Origin: Candidatus Binatota bacterium
GTDB lineage: Bacteria; Desulfobacterota; Binatia; UBA1149
Length of the DNA: 64,000 bases
Direction: 5' to 3'
Assembly (NCBI GenBank): GCA_012960245.1
Contig: DUBO01000051.1
Location: forward strand, 124,887 to 188,886
Shown here: positions 50,260 to 56,980 of the stretch, in pieces
Position numbering within the stretch: position 1 is the first letter of the stretch
Layout of the letters: every line of letters begins with the position of its first letter
Position numbers and translations under genes: made by a program
Notes under the pieces: model-generated
Told to the model about the DNA's origin: nothing
Seen by the model: only the letters and a program-made list of their open reading frames with translations
The model's database searches: none

Positions 50260-51462
50260 GTGAACTACGATTTTAAGAGAATAGAGAGGCTCCCACCCTA
50301 CGTTTTTAACGCGGTGGGTGAGCTCAAGGCCCAGGCCCGCAGCCGCGGTGAGGACATCATCGACTTCGGCATGGGCAACCCTGACCAGGGCACACCAGCG
50401 CATATCGTCGAGAAGGCCATAGAAGCCATCGCTAAACCTGCCAATCACCGTTACTCGGTTTCGAGGGGGCTGTACAAGCTGCGCCTCGCCGCCTGCGCCT
50501 GGTACAAGCGCAAGTGGGACGTTGAGCTGGACGCGGACAGCGAGATGATCTGTACCATGGGGGCCAAGGAGGGCCTGGGCCACCTCGTCTTGAGCATTGC
50601 CGGACCGGGGGACGTGGTACTGTGCCCGTCACCCACCTATCCCATACACCAGTACTCGGTGATCATTGCAGGTGCCGATCTCAGGCACGTGCCGCTCATT
50701 CCCGGGCAGGATTTTTTCGAGGCACTGACGGAGGCCATCAGGGAGACCTGGCCACGGCCGAAAGCACTGATCGTCAGTTTTCCGTCCAACCCGACCACCG
50801 AGGTGGTCGAGCTGGATTTCTTTGAAAAGCTTGTCGAGCTGGCCCGGGAGTATAATTTCCTGGTCATTCACGACAACGCTTATGCCGAACTCACCTTCGA
50901 CGGCTACGAGGCCCCCAGCTTTCTGCAGGTGCCGGGTGCCCGTGAAGTGGGGGTGGAGTGCTACACGCTGTCGAAGACATACAACATGCCGGGCTGGCGC
51001 GTTGGTTTCGTGGCCGGCAACCAGCAGATGGTGGCAGCCCTGACCAGGCTCAAGTCCTACTACGACTACGGGATGTTTGCTCCCATCCAGGTAGCGGCGA
51101 TACAAGCACTCAACGGGCCACAGGACTGCGTGGAAGACATCCGCCAGCTTTACAAGCAGCGGCGAGATTCGCTCTGCCGTGGGCTTTCGCGCATCGGCTG
51201 GGAGGTGCCGCCGCCGCAGGCGACCATGTTCGTGTGGGCGCACATCCCCGAGGAGTTCAGGCACCTGGGTTCGATGGAGTTTTCAAAGTACCTCCTGGCG
51301 GAGGGCAAGGTAGCCGTGTCGCCGGGCATAGGCTTTGGCCCCTACGGGGACGAGTACGTGCGCTTTGCTCTGATCGAAAACGAGCAGCGTACGCGCCAGG
51401 CCATGCGAGGAATCAAGAAGGCGCTCGACCAGGGGCCCGACAAGGCAGGGAGGGGGTCATGA
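50260..51462 (+). CDS. alaC: Class I aminotransferase, AlaC-like
   Basis: 400 residues, PLP fold type I. The cofactor lysine is Lys239 in [26 protein letters not shown] and [14 protein letters not shown] (the Asp and Tyr that hold PLP) fit glutamate-pyruvate transaminases of the AlaC/YfdZ group, often found ahead of homoserine dehydrogenase. GTG start; the stop overlaps hom (ATGA). The exact donor and acceptor are not proved by sequence. Confidence 0.9.
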
Positions 51463-52781
51463 AACGAGGAGTCGGCGTAGGCGTAATCGGTTACGGGACC
51501 ATAGGTGCCGGTGTCGTGAGGCTGCTGCGGCAGCGTGCGAAGGCCCATGAGGACAGGCTGGGGTATCCCGTTCGACTGGCCCGCGTCGCCGACCTCGACA
51601 CCAGCAGCGACCGCGGCATCAAGCTGCCCAAGGGAGTTCTCATAGACGACGCGAGGGCTCTCATCGACGACCCCTCGGTGAACGTCGTCGTTGAGCTCGT
51701 GGGCGGCGTGGAGCCAGCGCGCACTTTTATCCTCGAGGCCCTGCGCGCCGGCAAGCACGTGGTCACCGCTAACAAGGCCCTGCTCTCGGAGCACGGGGTC
51801 GCACTGTCCAGGGAAGCCGAGAAACGTGGCCTGCTTCTTGGCTTCGAAGCCAGTGTGGGCGGTGGTATTCCCATCGTCAGGACGATCAAGGAGTCACTAG
51901 CGGGCGATACCAACGAGGAGGTCTACGGCATCCTCAACGGCACGGCCAACTACATTCTCAGTGCCATGAGCGACGGCGAAGGTGAGTTCGACGAGGTACT
52001 GGCCAGGGCCCAGGCAATGGGACTTGCCGAGGCTGATCCCAGCTACGACGTTGACGGCATAGACTCGGTGCACAAGCTGGTGATCCTCGTTGGCCTGGCT
52101 TTCGGCAAAAAGATCAAGGCACGTTCGGTTCACGTGGAAGGAATACGCAGCGTGAGCAGCAAGGAGATCGCCTACGCCCGCGAGTTCGGCTACCGCGTAA
52201 AACTTCTGGCTGTCGCGCGCGATACACCGGCGGGAGTGGAGGCCAGGGTTCACCCGGCGATGGTGCCCGAGTCCCACCTGCTCGCCCAGGTGTCGGGAGC
52301 CTACAACGCGGTCTGCATCAAGGGGCGCGCACTGGGCAACTCGGTTTACTACGGGCAGGGGGCCGGCATGATGCCGACCGCCACGGCGGTGCTCGGTGAT
52401 GTTCTCGAGGCCGCGCGTTCACTGCGCGATGAAAGACCGCCTTCGAGTGAGCCCTGGGGACAGCCGCTGGCCCGACTATCGTCGGCGCGGGTTATACCGA
52501 TGGGGGATACCGCCCACGAACACTACCTGCGCTTGACGGTGGTGGATAAACCCGGCGCCCTGGCCCGTATATCCAGTATACTGGCAGACGAGGGTATCGG
52601 TATTGCTACCTTGTCCCAGCACGAAATCGAGACCAGGGGCGCGGTGCCGGTAGTCCTCAGGACCCACCGTTCTGCCGAGTCGGCGATGAAGCGGGCCTTG
52701 GCCAGGGTGGGGCGCCTGCGCGATAATCGCGCGAAACCGGTACTACTGAGGGTGGAAGAGGGCCTGGGCGGCCGCGAATAA
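51459..52781 (+). CDS. hom: Homoserine dehydrogenase with C-terminal ACT domain
   Basis: 440 residues. [10 protein letters not shown] (nucleotide fold), the [11 protein letters not shown] segment and [18 protein letters not shown] are standard; the C-terminal ACT domain ([21 protein letters not shown]) should bind threonine for feedback control. Converts aspartate semialdehyde to homoserine. The frame is open upstream through the aminotransferase, but the ATG at 51459 is the family start and has an AGGGGG ribosome site. Confidence 0.96.
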
Positions 52782-52783
52782 CA

Positions 52784-53851
52784 ATGGCTTGGAACGGATT
52801 GGTTGATCGTTATCGCGACAGGTTGCCTGTAGGCGATGCACCCGCGGTAACCCTGCTCGAGGGGAACACTCCCTTGATCGAGGCTCCGCGGCTCGCCTCG
52901 GCTCTCGGGCTGGGCAAGGACGGCCTCGATGTCAGGGTGCTGCTCAAGTACGAGGGGCTCAACCCTACCGGCTCATTCAAGGATCGCGGCATGTGCGTGG
53001 CCATGACCGTGGCCGTTGCCCAGGGGGCCACGGCCGTCATTTGCGCGTCCACGGGCAACACCTCGGCAGCGGCCGCTGCCTACGCAGCACGAGCGGGGTT
53101 GAGCGCTTTTGTTATCGTTCCCGAGGGCAACATTGCCCTTGGTAAGCTCAGCCAGGCCGTTATCCATGGCGCCACCGTGCTGGCCGTCGATGGCAACTTT
53201 GACGATGCCTACAGGGTCGTTTCGGGCGTGGCGGAGCTTCGCGATGTAACCGTGGTGAATTCTATCAACCCCGACAGGTTGCAGGGGCAGAAAACGGCGG
53301 CGTTCGAAATATGCGAGGTGCTGGACGCTGCGCCCGATTATCACTTTCTGCCGGTGGGCAACGCGGGTAACATCACTGCCTACTGGATGGGCTACCGCGA
53401 GTACTACGAGGCGGGGATTTCTGCTGGCCTGCCGCGCATGATGGGCTTCCAGGCTGCTGGTGCTGCACCGATAGTTGAAGGCCATCCGGTGGCAGATCCC
53501 AGCACCCTGGCTTCGGCCATACGCATCGGTAACCCGGTTAGTTGGAAAAAAGCTGAGGCAGCGCGCGATGAATCGGGCGGCGTTATAGAAGCCGTCACCG
53601 ACGACGAGATACTCGAAGCCTACAGCCTGCTGGCTTCAAGTGAAGGGGTGTTCGCCGAGCCGGCTTCGGCGGCTTCGGTGGCGGGCCTTCGTAAGCTCGC
53701 CCAGGAAGGCCGGATTGATGAAAAAACTACGGTAGTCTGCACACTTACGGGGCACGGTCTGAAGGACCCCGATAACGCTATAGCCGTTTGTCCGACTCCC
53801 CTGCGGGTTCCGGCAGACGTCGATAAGGCCTTGGTGGCGATGGGCCTGTAG
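52784..53851 (+). CDS. thrC: Threonine synthase
   Basis: 355 residues, short (class II-like) form. PLP lysine Lys66 in PTGSFKDRGM; STGNTSAAAAAYAARAG and the glycine-rich PLP phosphate loop PVGNAGNITAYWMGY. Converts O-phosphohomoserine to threonine. ATG start two bases after hom. No homoserine kinase (thrB) is in the operon or window. Confidence 0.96.
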   Translation: MAWNGLVDRYRDRLPVGDAPAVTLLEGNTPLIEAPRLASALGLGKDGLDVRVLLKYEGLNPTGSFKDRGMCVAMTVAVAQGATAVICASTGNTSAAAAAYAARAGLSAFVIVPEGNIALGKLSQAVIHGATVLAVDGNFDDAYRVVSGVAELRDVTVVNSINPDRLQGQKTAAFEICEVLDAAPDYHFLPVGNAGNITAYWMGYREYYEAGISAGLPRMMGFQAAGAAPIVEGHPVADPSTLASAIRIGNPVSWKKAEAARDESGGVIEAVTDDEILEAYSLLASSEGVFAEPASAASVAGLRKLAQEGRIDEKTTVVCTLTGHGLKDPDNAIAVCPTPLRVPADVDKALVAMGL

Positions 53852-53867: not shown

Positions 53868-53896
53868 TTCAGGCACGGAGGTCGGGCGGCTATAAT
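53868..53896 (+). promoter_or_regulatory. Promoter of the GlpX-like gene
   Basis: Perfect -10 TATAAT (53891-53896) with a weak -35 TTCAGG (53868-53873) 17 bases upstream. The start near 53903 leaves a 20-base leader containing GGGGAA as ribosome site. GGCTA/TAGCC (53888-53892, 53902-53906) form an inverted repeat around the -10, which could be an operator. Confidence 0.5.
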
Positions 53897-53923
53897 AACT
53901 GTAGCCATAATTCCGGGGAACAC

Positions 53924-54856
53924 ATGGAACGTAATCTTGCACTTGAACTCGTCCGCTTGACGGAAGCTGCGGCGCTGGCGGCTGCGCGCGAAAACGGGCG
54001 CGGCGACGAGATGGCGCCCGAACGTCTCGCGGCCACGGCCATCGAGACCAACTTTTCTGCGCTGGGGGTTAAGGGCGAAATCGTCGTGGGCAGCGGCCAG
54101 GGCGGGGTGTTGGCCACGGGTTCTACCCTCGGTGAAGAGGGCGAAGAAGTAGACGTTGCCGTCAATCCCCTTGAGGGCGGAATCAGTTGTGCGCTGGGCG
54201 GCCCGAACGCAATGTCGGTTGTGGCGATAGCCAGTCGGGGCGGCTTTCTGCGGACTCCGCCTAACAGCTACATGGAAAAGATCGCCACCTCTGCCGATGG
54301 CGCCGGCGTCGTCAGCCTCGACCAGGCGCCCGCTGTTAACCTGGGTCGTCTTGCCGAGCGTAGGGGGGTGTACGTAGAAGACCTCACGGTCGTAATTCTA
54401 GATAGACCACGTCACGACGACCTCATCGAGGAAGTGAGAGCGGCCGGGGCCAGGGTCAAGCTCATACCACACGGCGACGTGGCAGCCGCCATGGCAGCGG
54501 CGGGACCGCTTGGCGAGTCAGGCGTCGACATTCTCATGGGCGAGGGCGGCGCGGCGCAGGGAGTTCTCTCGGCTGCTGCAATTCGCTGCATGGGAGGCGT
54601 GATGCAGTGCCGTTTTCGTGTGCGTGGACCGGGTGAAGCCGAGCAATTGAGACAGGCGGGGGTTAAGGATCCCGGCCGCCTGCTCGACCTTGAAGACATG
54701 GCGGGGGGAACGGTCATGTTTGCTGCCAGCGGCGTGACCGACGGCGAGTATCTCAAGGGCGTCGCGATCAGCCACTCGGTCGTCATGAGAAGCGAGAGCA
54801 GCACCATACGGCAGTTGCAGACCAGCCACCGTTTCGATTACCGTCCCGACTACTAA
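53924..54856 (+). CDS. GlpX-like (class II fructose-1,6-bisphosphatase family) protein with substituted metal ligands
   Basis: 310 residues, clearly homologous to E. coli GlpX along its length: matching starts (LALELVRLTEAAALA), GRGD (25-28), VDVAVNPLEGG, the YMEKI and RPRHD segments, DILMGEGGAAQGV. In E. coli GlpX the metals are held by Asp33, Glu57, Asp85, Glu88 and Glu213. By my alignment these are Glu33, Ser57, Asn81, Glu84 and Gln212, so three of five ligands are no longer acidic; Lys29 is Glu and Thr90 is Gly. It is intact (no frameshift), has its own promoter and ATG, so a retained non-FBPase function is more likely than decay. The alignment is by eye. Confidence 0.85.
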   Translation: MERNLALELVRLTEAAALAAARENGRGDEMAPERLAATAIETNFSALGVKGEIVVGSGQGGVLATGSTLGEEGEEVDVAVNPLEGGISCALGGPNAMSVVAIASRGGFLRTPPNSYMEKIATSADGAGVVSLDQAPAVNLGRLAERRGVYVEDLTVVILDRPRHDDLIEEVRAAGARVKLIPHGDVAAAMAAAGPLGESGVDILMGEGGAAQGVLSAAAIRCMGGVMQCRFRVRGPGEAEQLRQAGVKDPGRLLDLEDMAGGTVMFAASGVTDGEYLKGVAISHSVVMRSESSTIRQLQTSHRFDYRPDY

Positions 54857-54915: not shown

Positions 54916-56559
54916 GTGGCTATAGTGCGCGCTGTTTCAGAGGTGGGTATTAAAGAAGACAGTGAGTTAACGAGTCCGTCCTGCGGCGAAGCTGGCGCGA
55001 GCCTGCTCTCGGGTATAGGGGTCCACGCCGAGTACACTGCTGACGACGTCGATGCGCCGGGCGAAGGTCCAGGCGAGTATCCGTTTACGCGCGGTATACA
55101 CCGCGACATGTACCGTGGACGCACCTGGACCATGCGCCAGTTTGCTGGATTCGGTTCAGCCCGCGATACCAACCGACGTTTTCATTACCTGTTGGCCCAG
55201 GGACAGCAGGGACTTTCTACCGCTTTCGATATGCCCACCTTGATGGGCTACGACCCCGATTCTCCGCGTTCGCTGGGCGAGGTCGGCCGTGAGGGCGTTT
55301 CGGTGGCTACGATCGACGACCTGGATCTTCTGTTCGAGGGCATCGACCTGGGCGCTGTCACCACCTCGATGACGGTAAATTGTACGGCTCCGATACTGCT
55401 GGCGATGTACGTTGCCTTGGCCGATAGGCGTGGCATCCCGAGGGCCCGACTCGGTGGCACCCTGCAGAACGACATGCTCAAGGAATTCATTGCCCAGAAG
55501 GAGTGGATTTCTCCGCCCGCGCCTTCCATGCGACTGGTAACCGACGTGATCGAGTTCTGTTCGAACGAACTCCCTCGTTGGAACCCGGTGTCGATCTCGG
55601 GCTACCACATCAGGGAGGCCGGGGCGACGGCCGTGCAGGAGCTGGCATTTACCCTCGCCGACGGAATCGGTTACGTGCAGGCGGCCGTTGACAGGGGATT
55701 GGACCCCGAGGTTTTCGGCCCGCGCCTGTCCTTCTTTTTCAATGTCCACAATGACTTCCTGCAGGAGATAGCCAAGATCCGCGCGGCGCGACGCATGTGG
55801 GCTTCGATCATGCGTGACCGCTTTGGTGCCAGCAGCGACCGTGCCTGCCTCATGCGCACACACGCACAGACTTCGGGAGTTTCGCTCACCGCCCAGCAGC
55901 CGCTGAACAACGTCGCGCGCGTGGCCTTGCAGGCACTCGCCGCGGTACTGGCCGGAGTGCAATCGCTGCACACCAACTCGCTGGACGAAACCCTGGCCTT
56001 GCCCAGCGAGGAAGCCGCCACAGTGGCACTGCGTACCCAGCAGATCATAGCCGAGGAAACCGGCGTGGCGGCAACGGTAGATCCTTTTGGCGGTAGCTAC
56101 GCAATGGAAGCCATGACCGACGCGATGGAAAGCGAGGCGAACGCGATAATAGAGCGCATAGACCAGGCCGGTGGAATCCTGGCCGCGGTAGAGGCCGGCT
56201 ATCCACAACAGGAAATTGCTGAATCGGCCTGGAAATTTCAGAAAGCCATGGAACGGGGCGAGTATGTCACGGTGGGGGTCAACGCGTACTCCGGCGAATC
56301 AGCCGGATCGCCGGTAGAAACCCTGGACCTGGGCAGCGAAGTGGAAAAAAACCAGGTAGAGCGCGTGATCGCTACGCGGGCCTCTCGAGATGCTTCAAGG
56401 GCTGCTTCGGCACTGGCCGAGCTGGGCCAGGCTGCGCGTTCCGAGCGTAACATGATGCCCCCGATGGTCGAGGCAGTGGACGCGTGTTGTTCTATTGGGG
56501 AAATATCGGATATCTTCCGTTGCGAGTTCGGGGTCTACAGCGACCCCGCTTGGACCTGA
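54916..56559 (+). CDS. mcmA: Methylmalonyl-CoA mutase, large (catalytic) subunit of split type
   Basis: 547 residues, the TIM-barrel substrate domain without the C-terminal B12 domain, which is a separate gene. [20 protein letters not shown] and [15 protein letters not shown] are family hallmarks. Tyr66 and Arg206 correspond to the Propionibacterium Tyr89 and Arg207 that select methylmalonyl-CoA over isobutyryl- or 2-hydroxyisobutyryl-CoA, where these positions become Phe/Ile and Gln. GTG start at 54916; alternative in-frame GTG codons at 54925 and 54943 exist. The 59-base gap upstream has no good promoter. Confidence 0.88.
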
Positions 56560-56575
56560 GGAAAACGGAACGCCA

Positions 56576-56980
56576 TTGGCAGAACGACGTCATCGCATAC
56601 TTGTAGCCAAGCCCGGCCTGGACGGACACGACCGTGGGGCAAAGATAATCGCGCGAGCCCTTCGCGACGGGGGGTTCGAAGTCATTTACACGGGCTTGCA
56701 CCAGACACCTGAAATGATCGCTGAGACCGCAGTGCAGGAAGACGTGGACGGCATAGGCTTGTCGATACTTTCGGGCGCTCACATGACCTTGTTCCCGCAG
56801 CTTCTCAAGGAACTCGAAAAACGCGGGGCGGGCGAAGTCGTTGTGTTCGGCGGGGGAATCGTCCCCGATTCGGATATCGAAGAATTGAAGAAAATGGGCG
56901 TCAAGGCCGTGTTCACACCGGGTGAGAGCACGGAGAACATAGTCGAATGGGTACGGGCCAACGTGGCCGACGCCGCTTAG
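56576..56980 (+). CDS. mcmB: Methylmalonyl-CoA mutase, small (cobalamin-binding) subunit
   Basis: 134 residues, B12-binding Rossmann-like domain. DGHDRG gives the axial ligand His18 (DxHxxG), then SILSGAH and [10 protein letters not shown] line the corrinoid tail pocket. The TTG at 56576 with a GAGGAAAACGG site is a better start than the earlier frame opening inside the large subunit. Forms the enzyme with the preceding gene. Confidence 0.92.

Follow-up and report, generated by a model that had tools for sequence, protein, structure and literature searches.

A GlpX homologue of Binatia without key catalytic residues: a probable pseudo-FBPase retained under purifying selection

What does a GlpX homologue do once it has lost three of the five acids that bind metal in class II FBPases? 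This question is raised by a gene in a stretch of 64,000 nucleotides of contig DUBO01000051.1 (Candidatus Binatota bacterium, assembly GCA_012960245.1), hereafter the window. A sequence-only reading of this DNA took the product for a pseudoenzyme or a repurposed member of the family, not for a decaying gene. We find that the dead-site GlpX seen here is a larger, class-wide family. To describe it, the glpX locus was collected from 122 genomes of the class Binatia, with kinship groups given as codes (e.g. f6, f7, f116, f117). Gln occupies the position of E. coli Glu213 in 98 of the 122 locus proteins (the Gln type), and the remaining 24, from families f7 and f116, are canonical at all the active-site positions considered below.

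Identity and active site of the window protein

The open reading frame, the position of its start codon and the residue changes are as the sequence-only reading gave them. The gene and its signals are as follows.

53924..54856, + strand: GlpX-like gene, putative pseudo-FBPase, 310 aa (PF03320, E=1.3e-96)
53891..53896, + strand: TATAAT, conserved in two sister species, without a recognizable -35
53915..53919, + strand: GGGGA, possible ribosome-binding site 4 nt 5' of the start (from the sequence; identical in both sister species)
54761..54766, + strand: position at which QFHKGG, present in the sister species, is missing through an in-frame 18-bp deletion (from the alignment)

The TATAAT that had been noted upstream of the gene is thus real, and a promoter scan returned no -35 matching it. 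The protein matches PF03320 from end to end with 323.5 bits (curated cut-off 27), but reaches only 229.3 bits against TIGR00330, the NCBIfam equivalog for class II FBPase, for which the cut-off is 259.3. HMMER aligned it to the solved GlpX structures of Francisella tularensis (7js3, 8.8e-69), Mycobacterium tuberculosis (6ayu) and E. coli (3d1r/2r8t). The AlphaFold model has a mean pLDDT of 91.9 and a pTM of 0.91, and its nearest structures in Foldseek are GlpX proteins (F. tularensis and E. coli, TM 0.92-0.93), so that a GlpX fold is predicted with high confidence. The earlier statement that the rest of the fold is well kept agrees with this model and is nevertheless slightly too strong, given that six residues (QFHKGG) are missing after V280 in comparison with two sister species that are 97% identical; the deletion may be genuine or an error of assembly.

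At the active site, HMMER and MAFFT alignments place E. coli D33, E57, D85, E88 and E213 opposite E33, S57, N81, E84 and Q212 of the window protein, bearing out the assignment that the sequence-only reading had made against E. coli. Three of the acids are therefore gone, one is swapped from Asp to Glu and one is retained, leaving the protein without the ligand set of the enzyme. The positions concerned are listed here with their distribution in the 13 genomes of the window's order and in the Gln-type clade.

54020..54022, + strand: Glu33, in place of metal ligand Asp33 (alignment; Glu in 12 of the order's 13 genomes, whereas almost all other clade members have Asp)
54092..54094, + strand: Ser57, in place of metal ligand Glu57, with the following DEAP motif absent (alignment; Ser confined to the window's genus)
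54164..54166, + strand: Asn81, in place of metal ligand Asp85 (alignment; Asn in 6/13 genomes of the order)
54179..54181, + strand: Gly86, in place of the proposed nucleophile Thr90 (alignment)
54404..54415, + strand: Arg161-Pro-Arg163-His164, kept 6-phosphate clamp (E. coli K164-x-R166-H167)
54470..54472, + strand: His183, in place of Asp186 of the DGD motif, a sugar hydroxyl contact (His in 13/13 genomes of the order)
54557..54559, + strand: Gln212, in place of metal ligand Glu213, the signature of the clade (Gln in 98/98 members, 0/44 other GlpX compared)

In GlpX, Asp85 and Glu213 hold the metal beside the cleaved phosphate, and Asp33 and Glu57 hold a second one (PMC5892879). Replacement of the threonine at the Thr90 site by Ala abolishes the activity of the F. 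tularensis and M. tuberculosis enzymes, while Ser leaves part of it (PMC10289334, PMC5892879). The window protein, in which the reported change at Thr90 proves to be to Gly, also has an alignment gap at the DEAP loop and lacks the D61-E62-A63-P64 motif, and elsewhere in its order the Glu57 position holds Asp, Arg or Gly. The profile alignment to GlpX does not place the acidic ligands elsewhere in the protein, and the same substitutions recur in independent assemblies, which rules out sequencing errors. Lys29 is likewise changed, as had been claimed, to Glu; but fully canonical GlpX proteins of the same class also carry Glu there, and we rejected this change as a marker of loss or decay.

The substrate side of the pocket is preserved. 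The 6-phosphate clamp of GlpX is formed by a Tyr and two Arg, and the DGD motif contacts the sugar hydroxyls (PMC5892879, PMC10289334). Y119, K/R164 and R166, together with H167 and D188, correspond to Y116, R161, R163, H164 and D185 in the window protein; across the 98 Gln-type proteins, the residues at 164 and 166 are invariably Arg, and H167 and D188 are each present in 97. Compared with the canonical GlpX of E. coli, M. tuberculosis and F. tularensis, the window protein thus shares full-length homology, the predicted fold and the phosphate clamp, and differs in having lost metal ligands, the Thr nucleophile and the DEAP loop. Judged from its residues, it has very likely lost FBPase activity.

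Ancestry and selection in class Binatia

In a maximum-likelihood tree of 107 rows, the Gln type forms a single clade with 100/100 support, adjoining the canonical group of f7 and f116, and the second, canonical GlpX found in some genomes falls on a different branch from the locus copy. On this tree, Gln213 appears to have arisen once, long ago, in the ancestor of most of Binatia. At Thr90, 97 of the 98 Gln-type proteins have another residue, usually Ala, Ser, Pro or Gly; in family f6, many members have Ser. Most Gln-type proteins outside the window's order retain D33, E57, D85 and E88. The changes differ in reach: the Gln and the loss of Thr90 are old and class-wide, Asn81 is seen in part of the order and Ser57 in the genus alone. 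Among the three residues whose fixation in a clade was in question, Gln212 is the one that all 98 Gln-type proteins share. In family f117 (G489-G497), no GlpX match was found at all, and seven of the nine genomes have a class I FBPase.

The GlpX-like gene has an open frame throughout the class, including each of the order's 13 genomes. Within the genus, 3-5 nonsynonymous differences stand against 37-49 synonymous ones (dN/dS 0.024-0.035); values within the order are 0.06-0.17, and those of canonical f7 pairs are 0.033-0.075. Purifying selection has therefore continued after the loss of the catalytic residues, and the protein shows what is expected of a pseudoenzyme: catalytic residues lost, the loss fixed in a clade, and purifying selection afterwards. 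On the strength of this selection, it probably has a different, non-phosphatase job.

Replacement FBPases, gene neighborhoods and a second dead-site clade

If the locus copy is inactive, another enzyme would have to carry out the FBPase reaction. The content of the window's genome (2.8 Mb, rated 96% complete) was assessed through the protein families searched, and the gene at the locus is its sole PF03320 match; the second canonical FBPase looked for in this genome is hence not another GlpX, but an intact-looking class I FBPase is present; its score exceeds an NCBI equivalog cut-off, and its alignment with the E. coli enzyme is good and spans the metal-site motifs. A class I FBPase occurs in each of the 13 genomes of the order. 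A search for phosphofructokinase PF00365 gave no match in any of the genus's three genomes (G000-G002), in contrast to the rest of the order.

Across the class, 93 of 98 Gln-type genomes hold another FBPase (class I, class V or a second canonical GlpX), compared with 2 of 24 canonical-type genomes, an association that, the Gln type having one origin, is a pattern on one branch and not 98 independent points. A canonical GlpX is also present in 35 of the 98, a count based on eight second copies that were read (8/8 canonical) and, for the remainder, on their lower-scoring match; 41 genomes have class I instead. In five Gln-type genomes, the assemblies of which are in part fragmented or incomplete, we found no other FBPase, and class III FBPase (PF06874) was not found in these few either. 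The presence of three different replacement FBPases within the Gln clade argues that the locus copy has given up this reaction.

The surroundings of the gene distinguish what was inherited with it from what is specific to its clade.

50260..51462, + strand: aminotransferase (alanine / LL-diaminopimelate type), ancestral neighbor, conserved upstream of canonical and Gln-type glpX
51453..52781, + strand: homoserine dehydrogenase, ancestral neighbor (locus comparison)
52784..53851, + strand: threonine synthase, ancestral neighbor (locus comparison)
54916..56559, + strand: methylmalonyl-CoA mutase type large subunit (TIGR00641, E=3.1e-208), adjacency conserved only in the Gln-type clade
56495..56980, + strand: B12-binding small subunit of the mutase (TIGR00640, E=3.4e-52)

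The upstream order of aminotransferase, homoserine dehydrogenase and threonine synthase, often with a phosphoglycerate-mutase-like gene, is common to both types, so the Gln-type gene is the original glpX, still at the ancestral locus that the class's canonical glpX also occupies. On the 3' side, a crotonase and both subunits of the methylmalonyl-CoA mutase type follow the Gln-type gene in many families. Where 4.7 kb or more of sequence was available downstream, the mutase genes occur in 20 of 23 Gln-type loci and 0 of 4 canonical ones; the proximity to methylmalonyl-CoA mutase that the sequence-only reading had remarked on is accordingly real and old in this clade. A functional tie between the pseudo-FBPase and the mutase is possible, with both traits marking the same branch. 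The neighborhood as a whole was rejected as evidence of a new function, since canonical glpX has the threonine genes beside it too and the mutase side alone is clade-specific. Separately, the mutase large subunit reads RQF at a motif that is RQY in methylmalonyl-CoA mutases and RQI in 2-hydroxyisobutyryl-CoA mutase; with Phe at this position, its substrate may not be methylmalonyl-CoA.

Another class of the phylum holds a second clade of dead-site GlpX (L206:1147-3939, L212-L241), with D33L, E57R, D85V/I and T90H/Q/Y, and with E213 kept. Canonical proteins separate it from the Gln type in the tree, pointing to an independent origin. About 77 genomes of that class have a match of at least 70% identity to this GlpX, and 29 of the 30 loci examined have a class III FBPase gene (PF06874) immediately upstream, in the same orientation. 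Both clades are conserved members of the GlpX family, without catalytic residues and with another FBPase present, but they differ in origin, in the residues changed, and in the operon-like arrangement with class III FBPase that marks the second. That a dead GlpX should be paired, independently, with a different class of FBPase is the strongest indication that proteins of this kind turn into regulatory partners.

Other unusual GlpX relatives were also observed. Proteins of about 560 aa (L207 in G162, L208 in G137, also G255, G351 and G314) match GlpX weakly in their central part (PF03320, 60 bits in L207), retain D85, T90 and E213, and have Ser at E57; they possibly form a long divergent GlpX family. 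In L209 (G249), an otherwise canonical GlpX has Pro at the Thr90 position.

Proposed role, alternatives and implications

We propose, with a probability of about 60%, that the window protein is a vertically inherited pseudo-FBPase that keeps its sugar-phosphate pocket and acts as a binding or regulatory protein. The ancestral glpX of the class would have been passed down vertically at its ancestral locus, and in the ancestor of most of Binatia, the change of Glu213 to Gln and the loss of Thr90 and the DEAP loop would have ended FBPase catalysis, a step strongly suggested by the residues together with the published mutants. Gluconeogenesis would then have been handed, depending on the lineage, to the class I FBPase, class V FBPase or second canonical GlpX seen in the genomes. 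The metal site would have eroded further in the window's order, with the window's genus as the extreme case, while the predicted fold, the clamp residues and Asp188 were retained. The protein would most likely bind F6P, FBP or a similar sugar phosphate without cleaving it, as a sensor or a regulatory partner of other enzymes; to sugar-phosphate sensing or regulation specifically, based on the kept clamp and the parallel clade, we give roughly even odds. The single fixed origin of Gln213, the low dN/dS, the predicted fold and the class I FBPase all fit the original view of a pseudoenzyme or repurposed protein, the function being one that we infer. Several observations weigh against a pseudo-FBPase: the four acids kept by most Gln types outside the order may allow metal binding and chemistry to persist, Ser replaces Thr90 in many f6 members and Ser mutants of other GlpX are partly active, five Gln-type genomes have no other FBPase seen, family f117 shows that the protein is not universally needed, and the FBPase association rests on a single origin.

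Some of these points would suit an enzyme with a new reaction, in which the pocket binds a phosphorylated compound and Gln213 acts with the remaining acids, perhaps in a reaction linked to threonine or acyl-CoA. Gln213 is fixed and not drifting, D33, E57, D85 and E88 persist in most families outside the window's order, and the neighborhood of threonine genes and methylmalonyl-CoA mutase is stable. In the window's order, however, strong selection persists although most of the remaining acids are gone, a combination that fits a binding protein more readily, and the threonine genes were inherited with canonical glpX, not acquired. We consider such repurposing unlikely.

Alternatively, the protein could be a regulatory subunit in mixed tetramers with canonical GlpX, as trypanosome prozymes are with their active paralogues. 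The AdoMetDC prozyme (PMC5201418) and the DHS paralogue (PMC3663545) resemble the present case in being dead paralogues beside an active enzyme, but they partner their own active homologue, whereas the FBPase of the window's order belongs to another class. The canonical GlpX in 35 Gln-type genomes would permit such tetramers; in contrast, the 41 genomes with class I instead, and the order mates of the window's genome, which have no second GlpX apart from a second match in G469, make them improbable. As a general mechanism they are ruled out for the window's genome by its single PF03320 match, and the protein cannot be classed as a prozyme there.

Continued FBPase activity, with Glu33 and Glu84 and with water as the nucleophile, would agree with the modelled fold and the retained substrate clamp, but it is very improbable given that the Thr nucleophile, Glu57, Asp85 and Glu213 are missing, that Thr-to-Ala mutants of known enzymes are inactive, and that a class I FBPase occurs throughout the order. 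A decaying, non-functional gene, to which the 18-bp deletion might point, is scarcely credible when that deletion is in frame, the reading frame is open in the order and class-wide, and dN/dS in the genus is so low.

Pseudoenzymes are already known as a kind, but we found no class II FBPase example, nor any description of dead-site GlpX families, in the literature searched, and the main Binatota paper makes no mention of FBPase. The nearest case, the GlpX of Brucella suis biovar 5 (PMC11005471), is likewise of an inactive type in a genome with other FBPases, as the residues of the window protein suggest for it; there, however, the loss is recent, due to point changes, and the protein is insoluble, whereas the change described here appears ancient, lies in the active site and leaves the predicted fold intact. 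More broadly, dead GlpX proteins could be recurrent sugar-phosphate-sensing regulators of gluconeogenesis, at least two lineages having independently lost class II FBPase activity, moved catalysis to another class, and retained the old protein as a ligand-binding partner to adjust the new enzyme or the pathway; we offer this generalization tentatively, as a somewhat doubtful one.

Some Gln-type proteins (L129, L092, L097) exceed the TIGR00330 cut-off with 295-319 bits although they are without catalytic residues, so that misannotation as class II FBPase is likely, and metabolic models of Binatia may credit Gln-type GlpX with an activity that is absent. The parallel clade beside class III FBPase opens a direct test of regulation. 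It appears that a core enzyme of gluconeogenesis was converted a single time into a conserved protein without enzymatic function, now present in most of a bacterial class; the three FBPase types standing in for it make this a natural experiment on how enzymes are replaced and why a dead one is kept.
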